Shown: one piece after another, positions 33,651 to 60,748 of the stretch | Layout of the letters: the number at the start of each line of letters is the position of its first letter | Numbering within the stretch: position 1 is the stretch's first letter | From: Lentzea atacamensis | GTDB lineage: Bacteria; Actinomycetota; Actinomycetes; Mycobacteriales; Pseudonocardiaceae | Assembly (NCBI RefSeq): GCF_003269295.1 | Contig: NZ_QLTT01000002.1 | Location: forward strand, 744,001-808,000 | Length of the DNA stretch: 64,000 bases | Direction of reading: 5' to 3' | Made by a program: the position numbers and the translations under genes | Notes under the pieces: model-generated | What the model saw: only the letters and a program-made list of their open reading frames with translations | Told to the model about the DNA's origin: nothing | Databases searched by the model: none

Positions 33651-35008
33651 GCCGCACCTCCCAGCGGCAGCGTCGCGGCCAGGCCGGCGAGCTGCATGCC
33701 ACGCAACGGGGTCAGCGTGATGTCGAGGTTGTTGCTCAGCTTCGCCAACTGGTCCTCCGCGCGGTCCAGTTCGCTCGGCGTGCGGGCGCTCACCCGTACC
33801 AGGCCGCGCAGCGAGACCTGACCGTCCTCACGGGACGGTGAGATCGACATCGCCAGCGTCGAGGACAGCGCGCGCACGCCCGTGAGCGAGTTCAGGTTGC
33901 CCTTCAGGCCCTTCGACGGCCAGCCGGTGATCGCGTAGCTCGCGTGACCGACGCCACCCGCGGTGACGCCCGACCACTTCTCCCGCAGCGACACGGGGTT
34001 CGTGTTGCCGACGGCGGCGGTCAGCTCCGCCGACGAGATCGCCGCGCGCAGCAGCTCGTCCGAGTCGAGCGGGCGGATCGTCACGCCGGCGGACTCGAGA
34101 GCGTTGCGGACACGGGAAAGCGCGCCGATCAACGCGCGGTGCGCGCCGACGACGCCGCCGCCACGCTCCCTGATCGCCTCGCCACAGCGGCGCGGGTCGA
34201 GCCGCACCGTGATCCACGTGGTGCGCCTGGCAGCCGCGGGCAGCGGGCCGAGCACCTCCATGTACGAGCTGACCGCCGGCGCGTTCGGCGGGAGTGCCGC
34301 GCTGCCGGGATAGCAGTGCCAGATCACGGTGATCGCGTCCAGGACGACACCGCGGTCCTCCAGACAGGGCGCCAGCGCGCCGAGCGGGAGCGACGGCGCG
34401 GAACCGACCGGGGAGATCAGCGGCGGGGTCGGGTCGACCAGCAGCACCGCCGTCCACACGCCGTCGTGCCACGACAGCGCGAGCGGGCGGCGTTCGTGGT
34501 CGACGCCCTTCGCGATCACCAGGTCCGGGATCGCGAGGCGCAGCAGCGCGACGCGGGGGTCCTCCGGGCCGAGCACCTGCATCTCGTCGTCACCGGGCTT
34601 GGACTCCTGCGGTGCGACCCGGTTCGCGGTGCGGCTGTGCGACCGGAAGTTGTAGCGGAGCCGGACACCGATCCACTGAGTGAGCCAACGACCACGCGAT
34701 CGGGTGAAAGCCAGGATCAGTGCGATGAGGAGCACACCGCCGGCGATCGAGACGGAGACGACGTTCAGCGCGCCGGCCGAGTCCTTCACGCCCATGAGTG
34801 AGAGCACGAGGAGTGCGATCGCGAGACCGATCTCGATCGTGACCACGTTCGAGACGGGCAAAGAGCCGAGGCTGACTCCGGCACCTCTGCGCCGGACACG
34901 CCCGACAGGACGCGGAGGCACGGGTGCCTGCTGGCCAGGACCCGCAGGTCCCTGCGGCCGCGCCATCCCTGGGTTCGGCCGGGGCGGATGTGGAGTGGTC
35001 ACGGACAT
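33647..35008 (-). CDS. eccE: Type VII secretion protein EccE
   Basis: EccE (453 residues) is the outer membrane-rim component of the ESX core complex. A Pro-rich N-terminus is followed by two membrane segments (IEIGLAIALLVLSLMGV and VVSVSIAGGVLLIALILAF) and a large cytosolic domain containing SWHDGVWTAVLLVDPTPPL. ATG 35008 gives MSVTTPHPP; the frame is open further upstream into the eccB side. It is divergent from eccB. ESX-4 of M. tuberculosis lacks EccE, so this locus has the fuller set. Confidence 0.85.
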   Translation of the reverse strand: MSVTTPHPPRPNPGMARPQGPAGPGQQAPVPPRPVGRVRRRGAGVSLGSLPVSNVVTIEIGLAIALLVLSLMGVKDSAGALNVVSVSIAGGVLLIALILAFTRSRGRWLTQWIGVRLRYNFRSHSRTANRVAPQESKPGDDEMQVLGPEDPRVALLRLAIPDLVIAKGVDHERRPLALSWHDGVWTAVLLVDPTPPLISPVGSAPSLPLGALAPCLEDRGVVLDAITVIWHCYPGSAALPPNAPAVSSYMEVLGPLPAAARRTTWITVRLDPRRCGEAIRERGGGVVGAHRALIGALSRVRNALESAGVTIRPLDSDELLRAAISSAELTAAVGNTNPVSLREKWSGVTAGGVGHASYAITGWPSKGLKGNLNSLTGVRALSSTLAMSISPSREDGQVSLRGLVRVSARTPSELDRAEDQLAKLSNNLDITLTPLRGMQLAGLAATLPLGGAA

Positions 35009-35125
35009 CCGTTGTGGTCTCTTTCCCCTCGATGGTCGGTGGGCTTGGCGAACCGGCCCACGGAGCAACCTGCGTCCGGCTATCCTGCCGAACCGTACCG
35101 CGACTGGGAGAGCAGCGAGCCGAGA

Positions 35126-36736
35126 ATGGCATCAACACCCACCACCAAGTCACAGGTCCAGGCCTACCAATTCGTCCTGCGGCGGATGCAGTCCGCTCTG
35201 GTTCGCAGAGACGCAGTGATGCTGCATGACCCCATGCGCAATCACTCGCGCGCGACAGCGGTCGGCGTGGTCCTGGGCATCGTCGGTCTGCTCGGCTTCC
35301 TCGTGTACGGGCTTTTCAAGCCGGCACCGCGCCTCGACGACCAGACGCAGATCGCCATCAGCAAGGAGACCGGCCAGGTCTACGTGGTCGATGCCGCGCC
35401 GAAGCGCCTGATCCCGATGACGAACCTGGCCTCGGCCCGGCTGCTCTGGTACTCGCGCAACAACCCCGACCAGCAGGCCGGTGGCGGTGACGCGCCGGGC
35501 GGCACCGCGGGTGGCGGGCAGGCCCAGGTCGCGGGCGGCGAGCCGAAGCTGGTGAGCGAGGCGACACTGGCCGGGCTGCCGCGCGGCCGTCTCACCGGTC
35601 TGCCGGACGCGCCGGACGTGCTGCCGAAGCCGAACCTCCGCATCGACGCGCAGTGGTCGGTCTGTGACACGCTCGACCTGGACGAGTTCCGCGAGAACCA
35701 GGCGGCGGAGAACCAGATCAAGACCTCGGTCATCGCCGGCGTGAGCCGCGGCAACACGGACCTGGGCGAGGAGGCGGTGCTGGTGCAGCAGCGCACCGGC
35801 GCCAAGAAGGCCTACCTGATCTACAAGAAGCCCAACGAGCTGGACGACATCTCGTCGTCGACGGTTCGCGCCGAGGTGGACCTCAAGAACGACAAGGTGC
35901 TGAACGCGCTCAACCTGAAGGGCAAGCAGCCGCGGGCGATCAGCACGGCGCTGCTGAACGCGATTCCCGAGGTCGCTCCGATGACCGCCCCCGCCGTCCC
36001 GAACCAGGGCAAGCGGGCGACCTACGTCACCGAGACGAACGTCAACATCGGTGAGGTCGTCGAGATCGAGCGGACCGGCGCGCCCGAGTACCTGGTGGCG
36101 CTGGAGGACGGTTTCCAGACCGTCGACGAGACCGTCGGCGACCTGCTGCGCTGGGCGTACTCGAACAACAAGCAGGCGATCAAGCTCTCGCCGAGCGCCG
36201 TCGCGAACCACAAGGACCCGAAGAACCCGCTCAAGCTCGAGTCGTACCCGGACAAGATCCCGACCACGCTGGAGGCGAACGCCGGCAACACCGTTGTCTG
36301 CCTCGGCTGGAAGGCCGAGAACTACACGGAGTCGACCAAGGCCGAGCACACCTCGGTGACGATCGGCTCCAAGCTGCCCGGCCCGCAGGAGATGACCCCG
36401 GTCGAGCTGAACGCGGCGGGTGCCGGTGGCGAGATCATCGACCAGTTCCTGATGCTGCCGGGCAAGCAGGCGGTGGTGCGGGCGAGCCAGGGCAAGGGCG
36501 GCTTCGGGACCGGCCCGGTGCAGATCGTCACCGGTCGCGGTGTCCGCTACGGCATCCCGGACGCCGGGACCGCGGCGGCGCTGGGCCTCGAGGGGAACTT
36601 CCCGCCGGCGCCGAACCAGATCCTGAGCCTGTTGCCGATGGGACCGCAGCTCAACAAGAACGAGGCGAACCGCAGCTACGACGCGATTCCCACGCCCAAG
36701 GGCACGATCAAGGATCCGCAGTCCACCCAGAAGTAG
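35126..36736 (+). CDS. eccB: Type VII secretion protein EccB
   Basis: EccB (536 residues) is a bitopic core protein with a large periplasmic domain. The cytosolic start TTKSQVQAYQFVLRRMQSAL and HDPMRNHSRATAVG is diagnostic, followed by one membrane helix (VGVVLGIVGLLGFLVYGLF) and periplasmic repeats with two cysteines (WSVCDTLDL and TVVCLGW) that may pair. ATG 35126 fits the family start; the open frame extends further upstream. It is divergent from eccE, with 117 bp between. Confidence 0.93.
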   Translation: MASTPTTKSQVQAYQFVLRRMQSALVRRDAVMLHDPMRNHSRATAVGVVLGIVGLLGFLVYGLFKPAPRLDDQTQIAISKETGQVYVVDAAPKRLIPMTNLASARLLWYSRNNPDQQAGGGDAPGGTAGGGQAQVAGGEPKLVSEATLAGLPRGRLTGLPDAPDVLPKPNLRIDAQWSVCDTLDLDEFRENQAAENQIKTSVIAGVSRGNTDLGEEAVLVQQRTGAKKAYLIYKKPNELDDISSSTVRAEVDLKNDKVLNALNLKGKQPRAISTALLNAIPEVAPMTAPAVPNQGKRATYVTETNVNIGEVVEIERTGAPEYLVALEDGFQTVDETVGDLLRWAYSNNKQAIKLSPSAVANHKDPKNPLKLESYPDKIPTTLEANAGNTVVCLGWKAENYTESTKAEHTSVTIGSKLPGPQEMTPVELNAAGAGGEIIDQFLMLPGKQAVVRASQGKGGFGTGPVQIVTGRGVRYGIPDAGTAAALGLEGNFPPAPNQILSLLPMGPQLNKNEANRSYDAIPTPKGTIKDPQSTQK

Positions 36737-41100: not shown

Positions 41101-41332
41101 CAGGGCCCCCTAAGTCAGATCAGCGCTTGCAAACAATGTGCCCGACCCTATTGGTCCACTCGGACGTGCGCCGGGCGGCCCTAGTATGGCCGCACCGGCG
41201 CCCTTCGCACGTGGTGTTCGCGGAACACGTTCGACTGGGTTTTTTCCCGACCCACCTTCGTGACGCGCGCAGATGCGCAATAGTGTCGGTTGCTACTGGT
41301 GGCGTAACGAGAGTCGAAGAGGTGCCTGTCAG
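41101..41332. promoter_or_regulatory. Divergent eccD/eccC promoter region
   Basis: This 232-bp gap holds two -10-like boxes facing eccC: TAGTAT at 41182-41187 and TAGTGT at 41281-41286 (with TTCGTG 18 bp upstream). On the minus strand no strong box is seen. It should hold the promoters of both units. Confidence 0.4.
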
Positions 41333-44300
41333 TTGAGCACGCTGCAGTTCAAGCGAACGGCACGCCTTGCTGCTCCCCGGCCTCCTGGCGGTGAGGTCCA
41401 CCTCGAGCCGCCACCCGAGGTTCCCCGGATCATCCCCGGCAACATCATGATGAAGGCGATGCCCGTCGTGATGATCGTCGCGTCCGTGGGCATGATGGGC
41501 ATGATGTTCTACTTCGCCCCGCGGCAGCCGGCGGCGATGATCATGCCCGGCATGATGATGATCTCGACCATCGGCATGATGGCGAGCGGCATGGGCTCCG
41601 GCAAGGGCCAGAAGAAAGCCGAGATGAACGAGGACCGCAAGGACTACCTGCGGTACCTCGGCCAGATGCGCGACCGTGCCCGCGAGGCCGCCGACGAACA
41701 GCGCGCCGAACGCGAGTGGGTGCACCCCGACCCGCAGATGCTGTGGTCGCTCGCCACCACCCGGCGCATGTGGGAACGCCGCCAGAACGACCCCGACTTC
41801 TGCCACCTGCGCGCGGGACGGGGCTCGCAGCGCCTCGCCACCCGCCTGGTGCCGCCGCAGACCGGTCCCGTCGAGGAGCTGGAGCCGATCGCGACGCTGG
41901 CGCTGCGCCGGTTCGTGCGCGCCCACTCGCTCGTGCCCGACCTGCCGATCTCCATCGCACTGCGCGGTTTCGCCGCGGTCGGCCTGCTCGGCGAGATCGA
42001 GGACCGCCGCGACCTCGCGCGTGCCCTCATCGCCCAGCTCGTCACCTTCCACGCCCCGGACGACCTGCTGATCGCGGTCGTCAGCGCGGGCCGCACCAAG
42101 CAGCTGTGGGAGTGGGCGAAGTGGCTGCCGCACGTGCAGCACCCCACCGACATCGACGGCATCGGCCAGCGCCGCATGATGGCGAACTCGCTCGCCGAGA
42201 TCGAGGCGATGCTGGACGAGAACCTGCGCGACCGGCAGCGGTTCACCCGCAACGCCCCGCCGCCGCCCGACCAGCCGCACATCGTGATCGTCATCGACGA
42301 CGGCGACATCAGCCGCGAAGAGATGATCATCCTGGAGGAGGGTCTGGTCGGCGTCACGCTGCTGGACCTGTCCGAGTGCCTCGGCAACCTCACGGCCCGC
42401 CGCGGTCTGCGCCTGGTCGTCGAGAACAACCAGCTCGGTGCCCGCTCCGCGAGCGGTGTCGAGTGGTTCGGAACGCCGGACCGGCTGTCGATCGTGGAGG
42501 CGGAGGCGCTCGCCCGCAGGCTCTCGCCGTACCGCATGGGCGCCGCCGGTGAGGCCGGTGGCGACAGCGGCGAAGACCCGTTGGCGATGAGCAACAACCC
42601 GCCGCTGCTCGAGTTCATGGGCATCCCCGGCGACCCGATCACGTTCGACGTGCAGCAGGCCTGGCGGCCGCGGCCCAAGCGCGACCGCTACCGCATCCCG
42701 TTCGGCATCGGCGAGCACGGCCAGCCGGTCGAGCTCGACATCAAGGAGGCCGCCGAGGACGGCATGGGCCCGCACGGCCTGTGCATCGGCGCGACCGGTT
42801 CCGGCAAGTCGGAGTTCCTCCGCACCCTGGTGCTCGGTCTGCTGGCCTCGCACTCGTCGACGGCGCTCAACATGATCCTCGTCGACTTCAAGGGTGGTGC
42901 GACGTTCCTCGGTCTGGACAAGGCACCGCACGTCGCCGCGACGATCACCAACCTGGCCGGCGACCTCACCCTGGTCGACCGCATGAAGGACGCCATCGCC
43001 GGTGAGGTGTCGCGTCGTCAGGAAGTCCTGGCGAAGGGCAACTACAAGAACGTCTGGGACTACGAGAAGGCCCGCGAGAACGGTGCCCAGCTCGACCCGC
43101 TGCCTGCGCTCTTCATCTGCATCGACGAGTTCTCCGAGATGCTGACGGCGAAGCCGGACTTCATCGACATCTTCCTCCAGATCGGTCGTGTCGGCCGGTC
43201 GCTGCAGATGCACATGCTCCTCGCGTCGCAGCGACTGGAGGAGGGCAAGCTGCGCGGTCTGGACACGTTCCTCTCGTACCGGATCGGTCTGAAGACGTTC
43301 AACGCGGCCGAGTCGCGTGCGGCGATCGGTGTGCCGGACGCCTACGAGCTGCCGCCGATCCCGGGCTCGGGTTACCTGAGCGTGCAGGGCATGCCGCTGA
43401 CCAGGTTCAAGGCGCTCTACGTCTCCGGCACCTACCGGCCGTCGGGCATGCAGTCCGCCGGCGAGTCGGTGGCGGTCCGCAGCGACAAGCGCCCGCGGTT
43501 CTTCGTGCCGGACTTCATCGAGATCCCGAAGGAGCCGGAGCGGCCGCTCGAGCCGGTCAAGGCCGAGGCGCCGGTCAAGGAGGACGCGAACGAGCCGACC
43601 CAGCTCGAGCTCATCGTCGACCGCCTCGTCGGCCAGGGCCCGCCCGCGCACGAGGTGTGGCTGCCGCCGCTCAACGAGCCGCCGACGATGGACACGATGC
43701 TGCCGCCGCTCGACGTGACGCCCGACCGCGGTCTCTCGTCACCCGGCTTCCCGGCGAACGGCGTGCTGCAGATTCCGGTCGGCGTCGTCGACAAGCCGTT
43801 CGAGCAGCGCCGCGACCTGCTGTGGGCGGACTTCTCCGGTGCCGCCGGTCACGGTGCGGTCGTCGGTGGTCCGCAGTCGGGCAAGTCGACGCTGCTCAGG
43901 ACGATCATCGCGTCGATGTCGCTCACGCACACGCCGGAAGAGGCGCAGTTCTACTGCATCGACCTCGGTGGTGGAACGCTCGCGTCGATGGAGGACATGC
44001 CGCACGTCGGTGGGTTCGCCGGTCGTCTCGACGTCGACAAGGTCCGCCGCATGGTGGCCGAGCTGCAGACCCTGATCACCGAGCGCGAGCTCCGCTGGCG
44101 CGACCAGCGCATCGACTCGATGGTCGAGTTCCGCAACCGCAAGCGCCGCGGTGAGATCAAGGACGACAACTTCGGTGACGCGTTCCTGATCGTGGACGGC
44201 TGGATGAACTTCCGCCAGGAGTTCGAGATGGTCGAGCCGCAGGTCCAGGCGCTGGCCGCACAGGGTCTGTCGTACGGCGTGCACGTGATCATCGCCGCCA

Positions 44301-45346
44301 ACCGGTGGGCGGAGATCCGGCCGGCCATGAAGGACCTCCTCGGCACGCGGTTCGAGCTGCGCCTCGGTGACCCGAGCGAGTCCGAGATCGACCGCAAGGT
44401 CGCGGTCAACGTGCCGCCCGGCCGTCCCGGCCGCGGTCTGACCGCGGACAAGCTGCACTTCCTCACCGGTCTGCCGCGCATCGACACCTCGCAGGACCCG
44501 GCCACGATCTCGGCGGGTGTGCAGGACCTCAGCCACAAGCTCAACCAGGCGTGGCAGGGCCCGCGCGCGCCGCAGGTCCGGATGCTGCCCGACCTGCTCG
44601 ACTACGGCCAGTTCATGGCTCAGGTCCAGCAGGTCAACCCGAACCGCGGCCACCTGGTCCCGGTCGGCGTCAACGAGGACGAGCTCGCGCCGGTCTACAT
44701 GGACTTCGACGCGGACCCGCACTTCTTCGCGCTGGCCGACGGCGAGGCGGGCAAGACGAACATCCTGCGCACGATCGTCCGCGGCATCATGACGAGCTAC
44801 ACCTCGACCGAGGCGTTGATCCTGCTCGCGGACTTCCGCCGCACGATGCTCGGGTTCATCGACACCGACCACCTGCTCAGCTACGCGGTGTCGGGCACCC
44901 AGCTCACGCAGAACGTCCAGGAGATCAAGGGTTCGCTCACCAAGCGCATGCCCGGTCCGGACGTCACGCAGGAACAGCTCAAGAACCGGTCCTGGTGGAC
45001 GGGTCCCGAGGTGTTCATCGTCGTCGACGACTACGACCTGGTCGCGCCGCAGGGTGGTGCGAACCCGCTGCAGCCGCTCGCCGAGTTCATCCCGCAGGCG
45101 AAGGACGTCGGTCTGCACATCATCCTGGTCCGGCGCATGGGTGGTGCGTCCCGCGCGATGTACGACCCGGTGATGGGCAAGCTGAAGGAGATCTCGGCGC
45201 CGATCTTCGTGGGTTCCGGTTCGAAGGAGGAGGGCAACATCGTCGGCAACCTCAAGCCGTCGCCGCAGCCTCCCGGCCGGGGGACGATGGTGACCCGCAA
45301 GCACGGTCAGCAGCGCATCCAGTTCGCCTGGATCGCACCCGACTAA
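41333..45346 (+). CDS. eccC: Type VII secretion ATPase EccC (fused EccCa-EccCb)
   Basis: EccC (1337 residues) is the FtsK/SpoIIIE motor that recognises substrates. Two N-terminal membrane segments (MMKAMPVVMIVASVGMMGM, ..MIMPGMMMISTIGMMAS) precede three ATPase domains with Walker A motifs GATGSGKS (486-493), GGPQSGKS (845-852) and ADGEAGKT (1135-1142). Domain 1 is canonical; the third is degenerate as in other EccC proteins. The start appears to be TTG 41333 with AGAGG upstream; the frame is open farther upstream but without conserved sequence. It is a single fused polypeptide as in ESX-4. Confidence 0.95.
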   Translation: MSTLQFKRTARLAAPRPPGGEVHLEPPPEVPRIIPGNIMMKAMPVVMIVASVGMMGMMFYFAPRQPAAMIMPGMMMISTIGMMASGMGSGKGQKKAEMNEDRKDYLRYLGQMRDRAREAADEQRAEREWVHPDPQMLWSLATTRRMWERRQNDPDFCHLRAGRGSQRLATRLVPPQTGPVEELEPIATLALRRFVRAHSLVPDLPISIALRGFAAVGLLGEIEDRRDLARALIAQLVTFHAPDDLLIAVVSAGRTKQLWEWAKWLPHVQHPTDIDGIGQRRMMANSLAEIEAMLDENLRDRQRFTRNAPPPPDQPHIVIVIDDGDISREEMIILEEGLVGVTLLDLSECLGNLTARRGLRLVVENNQLGARSASGVEWFGTPDRLSIVEAEALARRLSPYRMGAAGEAGGDSGEDPLAMSNNPPLLEFMGIPGDPITFDVQQAWRPRPKRDRYRIPFGIGEHGQPVELDIKEAAEDGMGPHGLCIGATGSGKSEFLRTLVLGLLASHSSTALNMILVDFKGGATFLGLDKAPHVAATITNLAGDLTLVDRMKDAIAGEVSRRQEVLAKGNYKNVWDYEKARENGAQLDPLPALFICIDEFSEMLTAKPDFIDIFLQIGRVGRSLQMHMLLASQRLEEGKLRGLDTFLSYRIGLKTFNAAESRAAIGVPDAYELPPIPGSGYLSVQGMPLTRFKALYVSGTYRPSGMQSAGESVAVRSDKRPRFFVPDFIEIPKEPERPLEPVKAEAPVKEDANEPTQLELIVDRLVGQGPPAHEVWLPPLNEPPTMDTMLPPLDVTPDRGLSSPGFPANGVLQIPVGVVDKPFEQRRDLLWADFSGAAGHGAVVGGPQSGKSTLLRTIIASMSLTHTPEEAQFYCIDLGGGTLASMEDMPHVGGFAGRLDVDKVRRMVAELQTLITERELRWRDQRIDSMVEFRNRKRRGEIKDDNFGDAFLIVDGWMNFRQEFEMVEPQVQALAAQGLSYGVHVIIAANRWAEIRPAMKDLLGTRFELRLGDPSESEIDRKVAVNVPPGRPGRGLTADKLHFLTGLPRIDTSQDPATISAGVQDLSHKLNQAWQGPRAPQVRMLPDLLDYGQFMAQVQQVNPNRGHLVPVGVNEDELAPVYMDFDADPHFFALADGEAGKTNILRTIVRGIMTSYTSTEALILLADFRRTMLGFIDTDHLLSYAVSGTQLTQNVQEIKGSLTKRMPGPDVTQEQLKNRSWWTGPEVFIVVDDYDLVAPQGGANPLQPLAEFIPQAKDVGLHIILVRRMGGASRAMYDPVMGKLKEISAPIFVGSGSKEEGNIVGNLKPSPQPPGRGTMVTRKHGQQRIQFAWIAPD

Positions 45347-45366
45347 GGGCGCACGAACACCGCACG

Positions 45367-45400
45367 GGGGTCCTTTCGTTCACTCGGAAGGGCCCCGCGT
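45367..45400 (+). terminator. Terminator of eccC
   Basis: GGGGTCCTTTCG (45367-45378) pairs with CGGAAGGGCCCC (45385-45396), with two G-U pairs. The T-tract is weak. Confidence 0.65.
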
Positions 45401-45417
45401 TCGTTTGCGCGCAACGT

Positions 45418-45480
45418 GAAAGGGCCCGCGGCCGAAGCCGCGGGCCCACTCAGGTAGCAGGGGTTCTACCTGCTTCCCCC
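45418..45480 (-). ncRNA. Structured RNA candidate, unit 1
   Basis: Read on the minus strand: GGGGGAA, a 7-bp hairpin (CAGGTAG/CTACCTG) whose loop is AACCCCTG, then GTG and an 11-bp hairpin capped by TTCG (45422-45447) followed by TTTC. Unit 2 has the same order, with different stem sequences but the same loop core CCCCTG. A ten-codon frame, MGEAGRTPAT, starts at the GGGGG of unit 1, so a leader-peptide role is possible. No protein gene lies downstream on this strand. Expression is inferred. Confidence 0.5.
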
Positions 45481-45664
45481 ATTGCCGGTCCCGGATCGAT
45501 GCGGTCAAGAGGGAGAAGACCGCACCGGCCGGGATTCTTCGGAGGCCCCCCAGGTCTTGCCTGCCCCCGTTGAACCGGTTGAGGAAGACTTTGCCGGACG
45601 CCTCTCTCGCGCCGCTCACGCTTCGATGACATCTTCTGTCGTCGGACGTGAGGGCATCTTCCGG

Positions 45665-45732
45665 ACAAAACAAAAGGGCCCGCAGCTGAAGCCGCGGGCC
45701 CACCGAACAGCAGGGGACTGTCCGGTTCCCCC
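45665..45732 (-). ncRNA. Structured RNA candidate, unit 2
   Basis: Same architecture as unit 1: GGGGGAA, an 8-bp hairpin (CCGGACAG pairing with CTGTTCGG, one G-U) with loop TCCCCTG, then an 11-bp hairpin (45676-45701) followed by TTTTGTTTTGT, a very good terminator. The stems differ from unit 1 but pair, so the structure is conserved while the sequence is not. GAGGAGA lies before an ATG at 45734 in this orientation. The 45347-45894 region holds units 1 and 2, a terminator and no clear gene. Confidence 0.55.
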
Positions 45733-45864
45733 ATGACCGGATCTCCTCTTCGGGAGAGCCCACTGGGGAGGGCCGACCCGGTCGGAGGCCGACGATCGTG
45801 ACACCCCCCAAATCCTCGTTGTCACTCTCGTCGTCCGGCTGAACACCACTGTGCACTGTCGCGC

Positions 45865-45893
45865 TCACACTTCGGTCACACCGGCTCCACGCC
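45865..45893 (+). promoter_or_regulatory. Heptamer direct repeats upstream of SARP pseudogene 1
   Basis: TCACACT (45865-45871), TCACACC (45876-45882) and CCACGCC (45887-45893) recur at exactly 11 bp. The array matches that upstream of the intact SARP gene at 46969-47008 and looks like a decayed copy. Confidence 0.6.
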
Positions 45894-45894
45894 C

Positions 45895-46901
45895 ATGGAC
45901 TCGACGCTCGGCTTCACCGGTGCCCCGGTCGCGGTACCGGCCGGTCTGCGTCGCGTGCTGCTCGCCACACTCCTGTTGCGGGCCAACGAGTTGGTGTCGA
46001 CCGACGAGATCGTCGAGCGGTTGTGGGACGGTACGCCGCTCAGTCTGGACCGCGCGGGCAAGACGGTGCAGATGGTGTTCCGGTCGGTTCACCTGTCACG
46101 ACCTGTTGCGCGTCTATACCGCTGATCGGTCTGCGGCCGAAGAGACTGCCGAATCTCGCGCCGCCGCGATGGAGCGCATGTTCGACCACTACCTGCACAC
46201 GGTGGCCTCGATCGACAACCTCCACTTCCTGAGCTACCGGGACCTGGACCAGTATCCGGTGCCGGTAGCGCTCGTGGTCGTGGAGACCTTCGCCGGGCGA
46301 TCCGAGGCGTTGGCGTGGTTCAACGCGGAACATGTGGTGTTGCGCGAGGCCTGGGGCGAGATGATCATGTGCGCGGCGCAGGCCGCTCGCCGAACCGGTG
46401 ACCAGCACCGCGCGGCGAGATCGTTGTTCTTGAGGGCGGCCGGCCGTGGACGGCTCGCTCAGTACGAGGAGAGCTTGGCGCAGTTCCAAGCCTGCGGCCG
46501 CTTGTCCGAAGAGCTCAGCTCGCAGCGGCACTGGAACAGGTCGGCGAGTACGAGGAAGTGTTGCGGTGCTGCGAGGAGTGGGAAGCGATTCAGGGAGGCA
46601 GGTTCATCCCGGCGTCGCACGGTCTGATCGCGATTGAGAAGTCCAAGGCCTGCATCGGCCTCGGCCGGTACGCGCAAGCGGTTGGCGAATCGCGGCGCGC
46701 GCTCGAATTCTTCGAGCAGTCGGGTAGCTGGGAGGACCGTGCAGTCGTGCGGAGCGTGCTGGTGACGCTCACCACGGCCCCGGTGACCTCGAAGAAGCTC
46801 GTCGCTGGTGGATGGAGGCGTTGATGTCCTACGAGCACGCCCGGCATCCGGGGGCCGACAACGTGCGGGCCAAGCTCGCCGCACTCCCCCAAAACTGGTG
46901 A
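45895..46901 (+). pseudogene. SARP-family regulator, decayed copy 1
   Basis: The N-terminal winged helix is readable (LLRANELVSTDEIVERLWDG, ..TVQMVF). At about 46090 it jumps, out of frame, to HDLLRVYTADRSAAEETAES, which in the intact paralogue comes after the NB-ARC domain; about 580 residues (BTAD and NB-ARC) are missing. The TPR-like C-terminus (MLRCCEEWEAIQGGRFIPAS, ..AQAVGESRRALEFFEQSG) lies in a third frame, with the stop at 46899-46901. So at least one large deletion and one frameshift inactivate it. Confidence 0.75.
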
Positions 46902-46944
46902 GCGGTGCTGGTGGCCCCCCAGGTCTGTCGCCACCAGCACCGCT
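46901..46944 (+). terminator. Strong hairpin after SARP pseudogene 1
   Basis: AGCGGTGCTGGTGG (46901-46914) pairs perfectly with CCACCAGCACCGCT (46931-46944) around a 16-base loop starting CCCCCC. It overlaps the pseudogene stop. No T-tract follows. Confidence 0.5.
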
Positions 46945-46968
46945 GAGGAGAACTCTGCCCGAGGCCGC

Positions 46969-47008
46969 TCACACTTCGCTCACACTGCCGTCACAACGCG
47001 TCTACACT
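46969..47008 (+). promoter_or_regulatory. SARP-type operator: four heptamers at 11-bp pitch
   Basis: TCACACT (46969-46975), TCACACT (46980-46986), TCACAAC (46991-46997) and CTACACT (47002-47008) are spaced by four bases each, one helical turn per repeat. SARP proteins are known to bind such heptamer direct repeats near the -35 region, so autoregulation is inferred. Confidence 0.7.
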
Positions 47009-47030
47009 GCTCGTGACCTGGGGGGACGTT

Positions 47031-49694
47031 GTGCGAGCCGAGTACCGCGTGCTGGGGCCGTTGGAGGTGTTTCTCGACGGCGAGCCCGTGCCGGTCCCGT
47101 CCGGACGGTCGCAGGTGCTGCTCGCGGCGTTGCTGTTGCGGGCCAACCGGTTCGTGCCGGTCGACGAGTTGGTGGACCTCGTCTGGGACGGTAGCCCGCC
47201 GAGGTTCGACCGCGCCAAGGCAACTCTGCAGATGGTCGTTCGCCGGTTGCGGGTGGCGCTGGGCGAGGCCGACTGCGTGCAGACTCGGACCGGCGGTTAC
47301 CTGGCCGTCGTGGAACCCGACCAGCTCGACCTGCTGCGGTTCCGCGCGCTGGCCGAGTCCGGTGACTTCGGTGCCGCGTCGGCGTTGTGGCGCGGGCCGG
47401 TCCTCGGCAACGTGGCGTCCGAGCGGCTGCACCACCAGGAGGTGGCGCACCTGGTCGACGAGCGGCTCGTGGCGCTGGAGCGGCGGATCGACGCCGAGCT
47501 GGGCCGCGGGCTGTCCGGTGAGCTGGTGCCGGAACTGCGGTCGCTGGTGGCCGAGCACCCGTTGCGTGAGCCGTTCTGGCGGCACCTGACGCTCGCGCTG
47601 TACCGGTCCGGGCATCAGGCCGAGGCGCTCAAGGTCTATCAGGAGATTCGGACGCAGCTCGCGGACGAGCTCGGTGTCGATCCTGGGCCGGCGTTGCAGG
47701 AGCTGCACCAGCAGATCCTGCGGGCCGACGTGGCTGCCGGTGCGCGTCCGCAGGTGCCGCGTCAGCTCCCGCCAGGGGTGCGGAACTTCGTGGGGCGCGA
47801 GGAAGAGCTCGTGGTCCTCGACAAGGCGGCCGGTGTCACGGTCGTGCACGGGGTAGGAGGTGTCGGCAAGACCGCGCTGGTGTTGCACTGGGCTCACGAT
47901 CAGCGGGACGACTACCCGGACGGCGACCTCTACGTGAACCTGCGCGGGTTCGACCCCGAGGTGCAACCGGTCGATCCCGCTGCCGCCGCCGAGATGTTGC
48001 TCGTCGGGTTGGGCGTGGAGGACGTCCCGTCCGGTGCGGACACCCGGTTCGCGTTGCTGCGCACCAAGTTGGTCGATCGGCGGCTGCTGCTGGTGCTCGA
48101 CAACGCCGCGTCGGCGCGGCAGGTCCTGCCGCTGCTGCCCGGTGCGGCCGGGGTGCGGGTGCTGATCACCAGCCGAAACCAGCTGCGTGCGCTCGTCTCG
48201 CAGCACGACGCGACGGCGATCAGCCTGCGGCAGCTGGAGTTCGAGGCGGCCCGGTCGTTGCTCGCGGAGGTGCTCGGCGAACCGCGGCTCGACGCCGAAC
48301 CGGAGGCCGCACGCGAGATCGTGGAGCGCTGCGCCGGACTGCCGCTGGCACTGCGGGTCTTCGCCGAACGGGTGGCGCGCTTCCCCGACGTGCCGCTGCG
48401 GGAGTTCGTGGACGAGCTGCGCAACGAGCGGCTCGACGCGTTCAGCGACTTCTACGACGTGGACGTCCGCGCGGTCTTCTCGTGGTCGTACCGGGCGCTG
48501 GACGACGAGTCGGCGCGAATGTTCCGGTTGCTGTCCCTCCACCCCGGACCGGACTTCGACGTGACCGCCGTCGCGGCACTGGCCGGGGTCTCGGTGGCGC
48601 AGGCTAGGCGGTTGCTGGAGCGGCTGGTCGCCGATGCCCTGGTGCAGTCTCGTTCGCTCGGCCGGTATTACCTGCACGACCTGCTTCGCGCGTACGCGGC
48701 GGAGCTGTGCGGTGACGACGAGGCGGCCGCGCTGCGGATGACCGAGTGGTACGTCCACACCCTTCAGCAGGCAGTGCTGCGCAAGGACGTGCAGGAACTC
48801 GTGGTGGCCGGCGAGATCACCTCCGGGGTGACTCCGCAGACGTTCGCGTCCAGGTTCGACGCCCTGGCCTGGTGTCGCGAGGAATGGGACAACCTCGTCG
48901 CGGTGATGCACGCGGCTCTCTCGCGAGGGTGGAGCGACCTCGCTCAGTACATCCCGGCGCACCTCTGCACCTACCTGATCGTGCAGCGAACTCGCAGCAG
49001 GGAGTTCATCGAGATCATCGAGGTGCTCGTCGGCGCGGGCACGACCCTCGAACAACGGGGAGTCCTGCAGGTCAAGCTGGCCTTCGTCTACGACGACGTC
49101 GGCCGGCTGGAGGACGCCCAGCGCTACCTCGAAGAAGCGATTCGCGTCGCGCGCGCTCGGGGTGAGAAGACTGTGGAGGTCACCGCCGTGATCAACATGT
49201 CGGCCCTGCACGGCAACCTGGGCCACCTCGAGGAGGCGTTGGAGTTCTCCCGCCGCGGGGTCGAGCTGGCGCGCGAACTGGGAGACCGTTATCGGGAGAA
49301 CGGCGCGCTCAGCAACGTCGCGGTCGACCTGGCCAAACTCGGACGATGGGAGGAGTCGCTGGTCTTCAGCGAGCAAGCACTAGCTGTCAGCACCGAACGC
49401 GGTGACGGGCACCAACAGATGGTGGACCACTATTCGAGAGCCAACGCTCTGGTGGGACTGGGCCGGTTCGCGGAGGCGGAACCCGAGCTGGAGATCGCAC
49501 TCGACGGCGCGCGGAAGTACGGCGACCTCGTCTCGGAGGCGTGGGCCTACGTCCAGCTCGGCGCCGCCCTGCGCGGCCTGGCGCGGCAGGCGGAGGCCGA
49601 TGCCGCGTGGGGTCGGGCGGCGGCCATCCTGCCCGAGCTCGAAGAGCCCGTGGCCAAGCGGATCGGAACCCGGCTGGCCGCGGTGCGGAAGTAG
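47031..49694 (+). CDS. SARP/AfsR-family transcriptional regulator
   Basis: This 887-residue protein is an AfsR-type regulator: OmpR-like winged helix (1-85; LLRANRFVPVDELVDLVWDG), BTAD (about 90-235), NB-ARC ATPase (P-loop VHGVGGVGKTAL, Walker B LLLVLDN, GLPLA motif CAGLPLALRVF) and C-terminal TPR-like repeats. GTG 47031 follows GGGGGGA by four bases; GTG 47013 would place the start inside the operator side. It is the only intact one of three SARP copies, between eccC and the Hsp70-like gene, so it may control the secretion locus or a distant cluster. Confidence 0.92.
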   Translation: MRAEYRVLGPLEVFLDGEPVPVPSGRSQVLLAALLLRANRFVPVDELVDLVWDGSPPRFDRAKATLQMVVRRLRVALGEADCVQTRTGGYLAVVEPDQLDLLRFRALAESGDFGAASALWRGPVLGNVASERLHHQEVAHLVDERLVALERRIDAELGRGLSGELVPELRSLVAEHPLREPFWRHLTLALYRSGHQAEALKVYQEIRTQLADELGVDPGPALQELHQQILRADVAAGARPQVPRQLPPGVRNFVGREEELVVLDKAAGVTVVHGVGGVGKTALVLHWAHDQRDDYPDGDLYVNLRGFDPEVQPVDPAAAAEMLLVGLGVEDVPSGADTRFALLRTKLVDRRLLLVLDNAASARQVLPLLPGAAGVRVLITSRNQLRALVSQHDATAISLRQLEFEAARSLLAEVLGEPRLDAEPEAAREIVERCAGLPLALRVFAERVARFPDVPLREFVDELRNERLDAFSDFYDVDVRAVFSWSYRALDDESARMFRLLSLHPGPDFDVTAVAALAGVSVAQARRLLERLVADALVQSRSLGRYYLHDLLRAYAAELCGDDEAAALRMTEWYVHTLQQAVLRKDVQELVVAGEITSGVTPQTFASRFDALAWCREEWDNLVAVMHAALSRGWSDLAQYIPAHLCTYLIVQRTRSREFIEIIEVLVGAGTTLEQRGVLQVKLAFVYDDVGRLEDAQRYLEEAIRVARARGEKTVEVTAVINMSALHGNLGHLEEALEFSRRGVELARELGDRYRENGALSNVAVDLAKLGRWEESLVFSEQALAVSTERGDGHQQMVDHYSRANALVGLGRFAEAEPELEIALDGARKYGDLVSEAWAYVQLGAALRGLARQAEADAAWGRAAAILPELEEPVAKRIGTRLAAVRK

Positions 49695-51116
49695 CCGGTG
49701 CAGCGCGACCATCAGCTGCGCCCAGAACGGTTCGCGCAGCGGGTGCTCAGCGGTGCGGCGTCTTCCTGGCCCTGTCGCCGGACACGAACTGGTTCGGCCC
49801 GAGAGCTGAGGTCGCGAGCAGCGCGGGCGGAGATCGGCCAGGACGAGCTGGATCTGCTGAGGTTTCGAGCGCTGGCGGGTTCCGGTGACTTCGCCGCGGC
49901 CGCTGCGTTGTGGCGCGGACCAGTGCTCGGCAACATCAAGTCGGACGCTCTGCACCGGTGTTCTCGTGGTCGTACCGGGCGCTGGATCCCGAGTCCGCCA
50001 GGATGTTCCGCCTGCTGTCCGTCCACCCGGGAGCCGATCTCGACGTCGGCGCGGCGGCCGCACAGGCCGGGGTGACCGTCGCACAGGCACGCCGGCTGGA
50101 ACGGCTCGTCGCGGACCACCTCGTGCAGACCCGTTCACCAGGTCGGTACGGCATGCACGACCTGGTGCGCGCCTACTCCGCTGAGCTGTGCGGAGACGAC
50201 GAGACGGCCGCGCTGAGGCTGACCGAGTGGTACGTCCACACGCTGGAGAACGCAGCCGACACGCATCCGGTCACGCAGCCGCTGCGAGCGGTGGAGATCT
50301 CGACCAGCGTCGTCCCGCAGGGGTTCTCCAACCGGTTTGACGCGCTCGCCTGGTGCCGCAACGAGTGGGACAACCTCGGCGCGGTGATGTACGCGGCTGT
50401 GGCCAGAGGCTGGGGCAGGCTCGTCCAAGCGATCCCTGCTCACCTCCGCACGCAGACCATCATCCAGAGAACCCGTGTCGCGAGCTCACCGCGATGTATG
50501 TCGACCTCAAGCGGCTTGAGGACGCGTTGCGTGGCTTTGAGGTGGCGCTGCCGCTCGTACGGGAAGCTGGCGAGCGGGTTGCCGAAGCATCCGGTCTGAA
50601 CAACATGAGCGTCGCCTACCTGTACAGCGGCCGTCGGGAGGAGCCGCTCGAATGCAATCGCCGCGGTCTCGCGTTGGCGGTCGAGATCGGTGACGTCAAC
50701 CTGGAGTGCATCTGCAGCGGCAACATCATCGGAACGCTGACCGAGCTTCGCCGCTATCCCGGGGCGCCGGAGGCAGGCGAACGGGCGCGGGCGGCTGCTC
50801 GCAGGCCGGGTGACCAGTACTTGGCCGCACGGGTGGACGGTCTCACCGCCACTGTCCTGGCCGCGCTCGGCCGGCTCGACGAGGCACGTGCCCTCTTGGA
50901 GCACTCCCTCGAGGAGTTGCGGAGGTTCAACGACAGGGGCACGCAACTCGAGGTTCTGGAAGAGGACCTGGCCCCGTGCTGTTCCGGCTGGGACGGCACG
51001 ACGACGCGGTGCAGGCCTGGGAACAGGCGCTGGAGCTGGCTCGCGCCGTGGGCGACAACCGGGCCGCTGGACTGGAGACGAAGCTGGCGCTGGTGCGCGG
51101 ACCCGGATCTGAGTGA
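49695..51116 (+). pseudogene. SARP-family regulator, decayed and rearranged copy 2
   Basis: Pieces of an AfsR-like gene occur in the wrong order. AEHPLREPFWAQLMVALH reads on the minus strand near 49700-49765, an internal inversion. On the plus strand follow a BTAD fragment (EIGQDELDLLRFRALAGSGD), a jump to FSWSYRALDPESARMFRLLS (after NB-ARC), and TPR parts in other frames (EVALPLVREAGERVAEASGL, ..LFRLGRHDDAVQAWEQALEL), ending at 51116. No NB-ARC or winged helix remains. Several frameshifts and deletions make function implausible. Confidence 0.75.
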
Positions 51117-58003: not shown

Positions 58004-60748
58004 ATGCCCACCTGGGAAGAAGTCAAGAAGCTCTGCGACAACCCCGAGGTCCCGCCAGACCAGAAAAAGGCCCTTCTCGAGGCGTACTACACGACCGAGA
58101 TGGACAAGGACTTCACGGGCACGCACAACGACGAGCTCGAGAAGTACCTCGACGACTACGACGTTTCTTACGGCGACGGCTTCGGCCAGTCGCTGTCGAA
58201 CGCGATGCCGTGGTCGGACAGCTCGGAAGACCGGCTGAACAACGCCTACGACATCGCGAAGAAGTCAGGTGACGCCGGTCAGAAGAAGATCGACGATCAC
58301 AACAACGCCAAGAAGTCCGGTCAGAACACGCTGGACCAGTCCGAGCAGCGCGCCGCGGACGGTGGCGCGGGTGTCGGCAACTCGAACTTCCTGCTGGACG
58401 CCGGCGCACCCGGCCTCAAGTACTTCGAGAACTTCCTTCCCGTCTACGTGGAGGCGAAGAAGGTCATCGGTGTCGGCGCCTCGAACGTCCCCACGGACTT
58501 CAACGCCGTCAAGACGCTCTACGAAGAGCAGCGCGACATCGACTTCCACAAGATCGACGAAGACATCAAGGAGATGCGGCAGGTCTCCACGGATCTGCGC
58601 ACTCAGCAGGCCGACTCCGAGAAGTCGATGTCGAAGCTCTGGTCGACCTGGGACGGCAAGGCCGCGGACAACTCGCGCGCCTTCGTCGCCGACTTCTCGA
58701 AGAAGGCCGCGGCCGTCGCGGACGGCATCAACCACATCGCCGACGCGACGCGCGCGGCGTGCCACACGGTCTCGCAGCTGGTGAACGACAAGGCGAACGC
58801 GGTGCTGAACGGTGTGGGCAGCCCGTTCGACATCGCGGGCAAGACGCCGCCGCAGATCCGCGAGATCGTGCAGGCCGCGACCAGCGACGACGAGGGTGTG
58901 CTGAGGCGGGCCGCCGGTCACGTGGGCATCCAGATCAACGATGAGGCCTGCGACGAGGACAGGTGGAAGGAACAGGTCCGCATCGGCGCCCGTGACTGGC
59001 TGCAGGGCACCTTCCACAACGATGTCAGCCAGAAGTGGACGAACTTCGAGAAGCTCTGCAAGGACACGAAGAAGGCGGTCGACGACGCCTGGAACGCGCT
59101 CGGTGCCGAGATCGACAAGATCAACACCAAGCCGTTCGAGCCCGCCAAGGAGGAGAAGCCCGCCGAGAAGCCCGGTGAGACGCCCGGCGGTGGCGGCAAG
59201 AACCAGAACCCCGGCGGCGGCGGTGGCGGCGGCGGTGGCGGTGGTGGCCCGACCGGTGGCGGTGGTGGCGGTGGCGGCATGCCGGAGATCCCGAAGCCGG
59301 AGAACCCGCTCGACAAGAACGGCGACGGCAAGCCGGACCTGCCCGGCGACACCGACGGGGACGGCAAGATCGACGACCTCGACGGCGACGGCAAGCCCGA
59401 CAACCAGCAGCAGTTGCCCAAGCCCGAGGAGAACCTCGAGACCGTCACGGTCAAGGCGGGCGACAACACGATCAAGGTCACGGAGCCCGACTCGAACGGG
59501 CACGTGAAGATGACGATCGACACGCCCAAGGGCGAGCCGAAGACCTACGACCTCGACTTCAGCAAGAACCCCGAGGCCGCCAAGGCGCTGATGGGTCAGA
59601 ACGGCGCGCAGGCCATCACGGCCATGGCCAATCAGCTCACCGGTACGCCCACCCAGGGCTCGCAGGCGCCCGGCGCTCCCGCTCCGACAGGCGGCACGCC
59701 GACGCCCGGCGGCGGTGCTCCCGGTGGCACGGGCATGGGAGCGCCCGGCTCGGAGTCGAACCCGATCCCGGTCGAGGTCGGCGCCGACGGCAAGATCCAC
59801 ATCGAGCAGGACGGCGTCAACTTCACCGCCGAGGTCGACACGCAGACCGGCGAGATCAACCTGACCGCGGACAACGGCGACGGCACGCCCGACCAGATCG
59901 GCGTGAGCTTCGGCGAGGACGAGAACCCGGCCGCGGGCACCGATCCCGCGGGCGTCGGTGGCGGCGGTTCCGGTGGCATGACCGGGGATCTGCGGCTCGA
60001 CCAGCCGTTGAACATCCCGGACCAGCCCTTCCCGCAGCCTGCCGACGGCGCGTACCAGACGATGCCGGCGCCTGCTCCGGGTGAGTTCCAGCCGATGCCG
60101 GCGCCCGCGCAGGGTGAGTTCCACACCGTGCCGGCCCAGAGCGAGTTCCAGCCGATGCCCGCGCCGGCGCAGGGTGAGTTCCACACCATGCCCGCCCAGG
60201 GCGAGCAGGTCTGGAGCCCGCCGGGCTCGGCGGGTCCGCCCCTGGGCCCCAACTACATCCAGGACAACGGCATCATGCCGAACGTCGGCGAGCCCAGGAT
60301 CGTCGCGGCCTCGGACGGCACGGTGGCGTCCGGTGTCTCCTTCACCGGCGGTGGGTCCTCCGGCGGCGAGTCGGTGCTCGGTGGTTCGTCGCCGGCCGAC
60401 AGCGCCTGGAGCACGCCGTCGCAGGGCGACAACGGTGGTGCGTTCAACACGAACGCCTCCGAGGCGGGCCAGGCGGGTTCGGCGAACCTGCCGTCCATGC
60501 AGGACGCTCACGGTCAGCCCACGTCAGGGCCCGCGTCCGGCGGCATGATGGGCGGCGGGATGATGGGCGGCGGCATGATGGGTGGTGCGGGTGCCGGCGC
60601 CGGCGGTCAGCAGGGCGGCGACACAGAGCGCGGCGCGAGCCAGTGGCGCACCACGGGTTCGCTGTTCGACGAGGACAACAGCAATCCGCTGAGCAGCGCC
60701 CAGGGCGTGCTCAGCGGTGACGACGGCAACCGGGGTGGTCAGTGGTGA
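58004..60748 (+). CDS. Large (914-residue) WXG-type T7SS effector candidate with calcium-repeat linker
   Basis: The first 380 residues are helical with a WXG motif in KLWSTWDGKAADNSRAFV (about residue 214). Then follow a Gly-rich linker, a run of DxNGDGxPD-type repeats (DKNGDGKPDLPGDTDGDGK and LDGDGKPD) like thrombospondin type-3 or EF-hand loops, a beta-rich region (VTVKAGDNTIKV), a 40-residue repeat region (GEFQPMPAPAQGEFH twice) and a Gly/Met tail with GMMGGGMMGGGMMGG, GQQGGD and RTTGSLFDED. The tail matches the protein at 37136. I infer a secreted, perhaps calcium-stiffened surface protein. Confidence 0.75.
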   Translation: MPTWEEVKKLCDNPEVPPDQKKALLEAYYTTEMDKDFTGTHNDELEKYLDDYDVSYGDGFGQSLSNAMPWSDSSEDRLNNAYDIAKKSGDAGQKKIDDHNNAKKSGQNTLDQSEQRAADGGAGVGNSNFLLDAGAPGLKYFENFLPVYVEAKKVIGVGASNVPTDFNAVKTLYEEQRDIDFHKIDEDIKEMRQVSTDLRTQQADSEKSMSKLWSTWDGKAADNSRAFVADFSKKAAAVADGINHIADATRAACHTVSQLVNDKANAVLNGVGSPFDIAGKTPPQIREIVQAATSDDEGVLRRAAGHVGIQINDEACDEDRWKEQVRIGARDWLQGTFHNDVSQKWTNFEKLCKDTKKAVDDAWNALGAEIDKINTKPFEPAKEEKPAEKPGETPGGGGKNQNPGGGGGGGGGGGGPTGGGGGGGGMPEIPKPENPLDKNGDGKPDLPGDTDGDGKIDDLDGDGKPDNQQQLPKPEENLETVTVKAGDNTIKVTEPDSNGHVKMTIDTPKGEPKTYDLDFSKNPEAAKALMGQNGAQAITAMANQLTGTPTQGSQAPGAPAPTGGTPTPGGGAPGGTGMGAPGSESNPIPVEVGADGKIHIEQDGVNFTAEVDTQTGEINLTADNGDGTPDQIGVSFGEDENPAAGTDPAGVGGGGSGGMTGDLRLDQPLNIPDQPFPQPADGAYQTMPAPAPGEFQPMPAPAQGEFHTVPAQSEFQPMPAPAQGEFHTMPAQGEQVWSPPGSAGPPLGPNYIQDNGIMPNVGEPRIVAASDGTVASGVSFTGGGSSGGESVLGGSSPADSAWSTPSQGDNGGAFNTNASEAGQAGSANLPSMQDAHGQPTSGPASGGMMGGGMMGGGMMGGAGAGAGGQQGGDTERGASQWRTTGSLFDEDNSNPLSSAQGVLSGDDGNRGGQW

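Follow-up and report, generated by a model that had tools for sequence, protein, structure and literature searches.

The window analysed here, a stretch of 64,000 nt from Lentzea atacamensis, carries hairpins on its minus strand between a type VII secretion gene and an AfsR-like SARP gene, and the question they raise is what they belong to, what switches them on and what they act upon. A sequence-only reading had described two units, each with a GGGGG run, a hairpin with a CCCCTG loop, a GTG, a long GC stem and a T-run, and had taken the changed but still pairing stems as a sign of selection on RNA structure. Both units were confirmed where that reading had put them, with GGGGG runs at 45732-45728 and 45480-45476, stems of this hairpin (P3) in 45726-45702 and 45472-45451 and GC stems at 45701-45676 and 45447-45422 (minus strand); their 76-nt segments gave folding z values of -3.30 and -4.71 against dinucleotide shuffles. 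The pattern ATGGGGGAA..CCCCTG was found at two places in the organism's own genome, both in these units (reversed control, 0). Of the layout described, the order GGGGG, hairpin, GC stem stood, and the GTG between the hairpins was not kept in relatives.

What had been described proved to be the 3' ends of a tandem pair of minus-strand RNA genes, each predicted to span about 165-175 nt (Table 1). Beyond the earlier description lie upstream P1 and P2 hairpins, a promoter with 11-bp repeats, a third unit and a tie to the SARP gene. Alignment of the Lentzea loci gives the full order of a unit as 11-bp direct repeats (GTGTGAnC...GTGTGAGC), a CAnAGT box 7-8 bp past the repeats, P1 beginning several bases beyond the box, P2, P3 and the GC stem, with GGGGG in the P1 loop, CUCCC(C) in the P2 loop, CCCCUG in the P3 loop and a further GGGGG preceding the P3 stem.

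Table 1 Elements of the minus-strand array and the genes around it (positions in the window)
Feature	Position	Strand	Basis
Unit 0 operator, three 11-bp repeats, between intact SARP gene and divergent unit 0 RNA	46964..46996	-	Sequence and relatives
Unit 0 -10-like box CAGAGT	46952..46957	-	Sequence and relatives
Unit 0 15-bp hairpin AGCGGUGCUGGUGGC/GCCACCAGCACCGCU, CCUGGGGG in loop	46901..46944	-	Sequence and relatives
Unit 1 operator, direct repeats GTGTGACCGAA/GTGTGAGC, period 11 bp	45863..45881	-	Sequence; also before unit 1 of relatives
Unit 1 -10-like box CACAGT (CAnAGT)	45848..45853	-	Sequence
Unit 1 P1 hairpin, GGGGGG at end of loop	45790..45833	-	Folds, covariation (helices 1 and 2)
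Unit 1 P2 hairpin, loop UCCCCAGU	45751..45780	-	Folds, helix 3 (83.2% of cells paired)
Unit 1 candidate alternative hairpin UCCGGU-(CAUGGGGGA)-ACCGGA, mutually exclusive with P3	45721..45741	-	94.7% of cells paired, covariation absent
Unit 1 P3 (first hairpin of the sequence-only reading): GGGGG, then stem ACCGGACAG/CUGUUCGGU, loop UCCCCUG	45702..45732	-	Fold, covariation
Unit 1 intrinsic terminator, stem and T-run	45666..45701	-	Fold and terminator scan
Unit 2 operator, diverged 11-bp repeats GTCATCGAAGC/GTGAGCGGCGC/GAGAGAGGCGT	45598..45630	-	Sequence and alignment
Unit 2 -10-like box CAAAGT	45588..45593	-	Sequence
Unit 2 P1 hairpin, CCUGGGGG in loop	45533..45576	-	Fold; inside R1 model match 45581-45490
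Unit 2 P2 hairpin UGCGGUC/GACCGCA, loop UUCUCCCUCUU	45500..45524	-	Fold, alignment; inside R1 model match 45581-45490
Unit 2 P3 (second hairpin of that reading): GGGGG, then CAGGUAG/CUACCUG, loop AACCCCUG	45451..45480	-	Sequence and relatives
Unit 2 GC terminator stem, short T-run	45419..45447	-	Sequence and fold; absent from terminator-scan list
Intact AfsR-like SARP (Trans_reg_C, BTAD, NB-ARC, TPR), likely activator	47013..49694	+	Domain search
SARP pseudogene 1, in broken fragments of both termini (approximate limits)	45895..46824	+	By eye
Presumed eccC (ATPase of type VII secretion), converging on unit 2	41273..45346	+	FtsK_SpoIIIE domains

The gene at 41273..45346 we take to be eccC, a name that comes from the sequence-only reading; EccB (34988-36736, plus strand) and a 914-aa WXG100-domain protein (58004-60748, plus strand) also lie in the window, which is thus a type VII secretion region. 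An apparent second broken SARP, in shifted-frame pieces judged by eye (49697-50599, plus strand), follows the intact one, so that the window seems to hold the remnants of a tandem SARP series.

The T-runs ascribed to both units held in part: the terminator of unit 1 was recovered independently by a terminator scan, and unit 2, with its short T-run (CCCTTTCACG), was missing from the scan list. The third unit (unit 0, 46901-46996), 5' of the intact SARP gene, consists of the promoter and a P1 hairpin only, with no clear terminator found. Among the features looked for in a trans-acting small RNA, unit 1 possesses the repeats with the CAnAGT box, the fold and the terminator and lacks a consensus sigma-70 promoter, and units 0 and 2 possess the set in part; the consensus scan found no sigma-70 promoter, CAnAGT making a poor -10. 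Eleven of the 24 Lentzea loci have isolated P2-type hairpins, which either adjoin another SARP or come after unit 0.

Selection on RNA structure is supported by the covariation of unit 1, the P3 rows and the pairing of unit 2 P2. In unit 1 (22 RNAs), 15 of 40 pairs carry double changes compared with a shuffle mean of 6.5 (0/500 shuffles as high), a comparison in which kinship among the sequences can push covariation above shuffles, and 93.9% of cells are paired versus 32.7-46.1% with the partners slid by 1-3 columns, the consensus structure having been derived from the same sequences, which alone favours it over the slid versions; neither control is therefore decisive alone. For unit 2 P2 (16 RNAs), 93.7% of cells are paired and the covariation score lies above the shuffles (0/500 as high), its three double-changed pairs not exceeding them (109/500 as high). 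The P3 stem is unbroken in all 18 rows entered, which are of two sequence types and hold 5-9 pairs around CCCCUG (CUCCUG in one row); these rows stand for 38 modules, the others repeating a stem and loop already included. Unit number varies among the Lentzea loci, and G020 and G022 each have three units of the P3 type; their extra units fall outside the 38 modules, and that of G022 has a single mismatch in P3. The stem CAGGUAG/CUACCUG proposed earlier for unit 2 is backed by relatives (for example, CGGGUAG/CUACCCG), the minimum-energy fold pairing AGCAGG/CCUGCU instead. From this architecture and covariation, both seen in the sequences, we infer that the array very probably encodes structured, transcribed RNA.

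The GGGGG run of P3 could pair with the CCCC of its loop as a pseudoknot, an arrangement beyond the reach of covariation because both runs are nearly invariant. Where they do decay they do so separately, the G-run having shrunk to GGG with the loop kept in unit 2 of G017, and the loop having been lost with the G-run kept in unit 2 of G015 and G021 (G021 has a SARP), so the two do not vary together. The alternative G-loop hairpin of unit 1 combines its high paired fraction with zero covariation. In G005 and G010, the unit 2 P3 (L076 6494, L079 7623) carries the sequence type of unit 1, an apparent case of conversion between tandem copies.

How far does the array extend among relatives? A 361-bp region matches beside eccC in 24/24 Lentzea genomes (G000-G023, the last only at E = 0.0015), and in 29 of 99 relatives at E <= 0.01, five of these being short, weak matches outside Lentzea. 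The 5' arm of unit 0 with its G-run was matched in 21/24 Lentzea loci, and the SARP N-terminal motif in 22/24, being absent in G008, whose locus ends at a contig end, and in G015. Across L061-L085, one to three SARP motifs were seen per Lentzea locus (none in G008 and G015), the RNA units persisting. A covariance model had been put forward in the sequence-only reading as a way of finding further copies; our model R1 did match 19 of 60 relatives (a set without g21 and g22), every one of them Lentzea, and missed 5 of the 24 Lentzea. Run against individual g21, g22 and Saccharothrix loci, it found no RNA-strand match below E = 0.1; the sole match, in L118 (E = 0.003), was on the opposite strand.

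Promoter and neighbours recur in at least two more genera, where the RNAs differ in sequence and have G-rich and C-rich loops of a similar kind. The combined repeat-and-box pattern (<=2 mismatches) was found in 21 of 249 genomes of the family, from three genera, and never in the reversed control. Six loci with the promoter lie outside Lentzea, five in g21 and g22 and one in Saccharothrix coeruleofusca (L118), and in all of them except L087 eccC is near and convergent. Their predicted folds show a C-rich loop (CUCCCC or CCUCCC) in 4/6 and a G-rich loop in 2/6. Strict minimum-energy folding of 25 RNAs from g21 and g22 gave a G-loop in 10, a C-loop in 10 and both in three, compared with 7.4%, 4.0% and 0.2% of shuffles (n = 500); most of the 25 thus lack one or both loops under strict folding, and more show both by eye because the G-runs often lie partly within stems. 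In other genera of the family, the region beside the best eccC match held neither SARP motif nor repeat in 18/18 cases outside g21 and g22, one of these regions (L137) being only 1139 bases long.

The same promoter points to what may switch the units on. Promoters controlled by SARPs have repeats about 8 bp before the -10, and the distance here from the TGAGC-type heptamer to CAnAGT, 7-8 bp, agrees with this spacing. At least two direct repeats at 11-bp steps, as expected of a SARP-type promoter, precede units 0 and 1, those of unit 2 having diverged. Operator matches were found in 16 of 17 sampled Lentzea genomes, all inside array regions. The array loci of Lentzea hold 48 matches, every one on the RNA strand, of which 43 precede a named unit type and five, including that of the second unit of G002, precede a hairpin-like sequence with a GGGGG run as judged by eye. 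A further unit type behind the same operator (L074 1079, L075 545, L076 3358, L077 3720) has a GGGGGG-loop hairpin, followed in 3/4 loci by a hairpin-like C/U-rich stretch (by eye).

Among 27 regions of about 5 kb in g21 and g22, the repeats occur in 18/18 with a SARP motif and in 1/9 without, a count over related genomes, hence not independent cases, that leaves out L178 (a 660-base fragment) and includes L166, where repeats and SARP motif are 3 kb apart. Only one Lentzea locus that extends past the array has no SARP motif, that of G015, and it is missing units 0 and 1 as well as the P3 loop. The promoter repeats and their co-occurrence with SARP genes, as observed, make it likely that the RNA units are under SARP control, and the confinement of the operator pattern (<=2 mismatches, -10 box included) to arrays in the sampled Lentzea genomes suggests SARPs devoted to RNA effectors. 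The AfsR-like SARP would bind the 11-bp repeats between its own gene and the divergent RNA units and activate the latter, with RNA predicted to start near the base of the first hairpin and, in units 1 and 2, to end at the GC stem.

Taken as a whole, the locus is best explained, with somewhat better than even confidence, by SARP-activated, trans-acting small RNAs whose C-rich loops bind ribosome sites. The C-rich loops (CUCCC of P2 and CCCCUG of P3) would pair with G-rich ribosome-binding sites and lower translation, while the G-rich loops would imitate such sites, holding the C-loops or competing for them. For the action of the C-loops on ribosome-binding sites taken separately, we put the chances about level. 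Having G-rich ribosome sites of their own, the SARP messages would be the first candidate targets, giving negative feedback, and the second candidates would be the type VII secretion genes. Ranked by pairing with the unit 1 P2 loop, the intact SARP ribosome site (CCUGGGGGGA) comes out top among 46 window genes; of four loop seeds, it leads for this one only, standing about 10th for unit 2 P2 and about 8th for P3. It also has the string CCUGGGGGG in common with the P1 region of unit 0. SARP-like starts with repeats contain GGGG in 32/45 cases, compared with 11/45 window genes (the SARP itself excluded), these starts being orthologues rather than independent cases; gene starts for both the ranks and the G-content were called by a home-made rule. 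As SARP-like starts without repeats are equally G-rich (GGGG in 19/26), our estimate for SARP messages among the targets was lowered slightly, and we regard them as doubtful candidates. By complementarity alone, the C-rich loops would not tell one G-rich site from another. Pairing with ribosome-binding sites together with SARP feedback is, from these comparisons, the leading model that we infer, though weakly held.

The strongest competitor gives the RNAs a protein target (the SARP, RNA polymerase or a component of the ribosome, for instance), with the G- and C-loops serving folding or kissing contacts instead of pairing with mRNA. The unit 0 hairpin is near-identical in sequence across the 18 copies compared, which is more than its stem, or pairing alone, would need, so a protein site is possible there; moreover, the G- and C-loops that exceed shuffles in other genera (10 and 10 of 25) can pair with each other. 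Against this stands the binding of ribosome sites by C-rich loops of an actinobacterial RNA, described in excerpts of PMC10470900, and we consider a protein target unlikely. Rather less probable is that the elements work as DNA only, as SARP operators and stacked terminators between divergent and convergent genes with no functional RNA: operators between the divergent SARP genes and the units could indeed serve SARP autoregulation alone, but P1, P2 and P3 covary around conserved loops. A cis-acting leader, attenuator or riboswitch, to which the terminator-like stems ending the hairpins might point, was rejected as highly improbable because no same-strand gene follows, unit 1 being followed by the unit 2 promoter and unit 2 by antisense of the convergent eccC only. 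Leader peptides opening with ATG-GGG-GAA, suggested by the sequence-only reading, have an ATG at the G-run in 28 of 41 rows found by regular expression (of these 41, G003 6756 lies outside the P3 modules) but fail just as clearly because the frame is not kept, the G-run counting five Gs in 19 rows, six in 21 and eight in one, the peptides differing across species (MGEPDSPLLFG, MGGTGRSPAVR, MGGSR) and CTG, TTG, ACG and GAG also standing at the ATG position.

SARP-activated small RNAs would bear on how this regulator class is seen, SARP proteins having been studied as switches of antibiotic gene clusters. More speculatively, there may be a class of SARPs that mainly target non-coding RNAs in the genome instead of biosynthesis genes, whose RNAs carry mimics of ribosome-binding sites (the G-loops) and anti-mimics (the C-loops), with the exclusive hairpins of unit 1 exposing either; this would be an RNA switch, driven by a signal-sensing ATPase regulator, with feedback on the translation of that SARP and of neighbouring ones and possibly on type VII secretion. 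If true, an RNA layer would be added to AfsR-type signalling.

Neither the window nor seven further loci held a match to any known RNA family at the Rfam cut-offs. Weak scores at unit 1 for BjrC68 (26.0 bits, cut-off 39), ftsZ-DE (30.8, cut-off 72.2) and sX11 (18.0, cut-off 70) were taken as chance, all being below cut-off and ftsZ-DE lying on the opposite strand. The 6C RNA (RF01066), which has two hairpins with about six Cs in each loop, was found neither in the window, nor among the seven matches listed for 45350-45900 up to E = 5, nor in the seven further loci; the genuine 6C RNA of this genome scores 75.6 bits at C12:198013-198087 (L179), on a separate contig. Membership of 6C was rejected on these grounds and on the loops, which are GGGGG, CUCCC(C) and CCCCUG. 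Since no Rfam family matches at its cut-offs and the genome's own 6C lies on another contig, the RNAs are a separate family not in Rfam 15, working like 6C at most. Titles and abstract openings among the literature matches listed, with full text for open-licence papers, make no mention of them.

Three known systems invite comparison. In afsR-afsS, an AfsR-like SARP controls a small neighbouring effector gene, and the likeness to the present locus lies in such a SARP beside a small effector; the difference is that AfsS is a small protein, whereas no reading frame is kept here. PimR-type SARP operators, as given in excerpts of PMC5930380, consist of direct heptamer repeats with 4-nt spacers, hence 11-bp steps, three of them in the main operator. 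The operators here are alike in the direct repeats at 11-bp steps, and differ in the repeat itself (CGGCAAG versus approximately TGTGAGC) and in the presumed controlled unit, which is an RNA and not a protein gene. Closest in presumed action is 6C/B11 (RF01066), also a short RNA of actinobacteria, built from hairpins whose loops are C-rich; according to excerpts of PMC10470900, these loops bind ribosome sites in mycobacteria, and B11 represses a reporter carrying the eccB4 5' UTR of ESX-4. The RNAs described here differ in their CUCCC and CCCCUG loops, the added G-rich loops and the SARP-like promoter, and would, if the favoured reading is true, provide a second actinobacterial case of C-loop RNAs, adjoining a type VII secretion locus.
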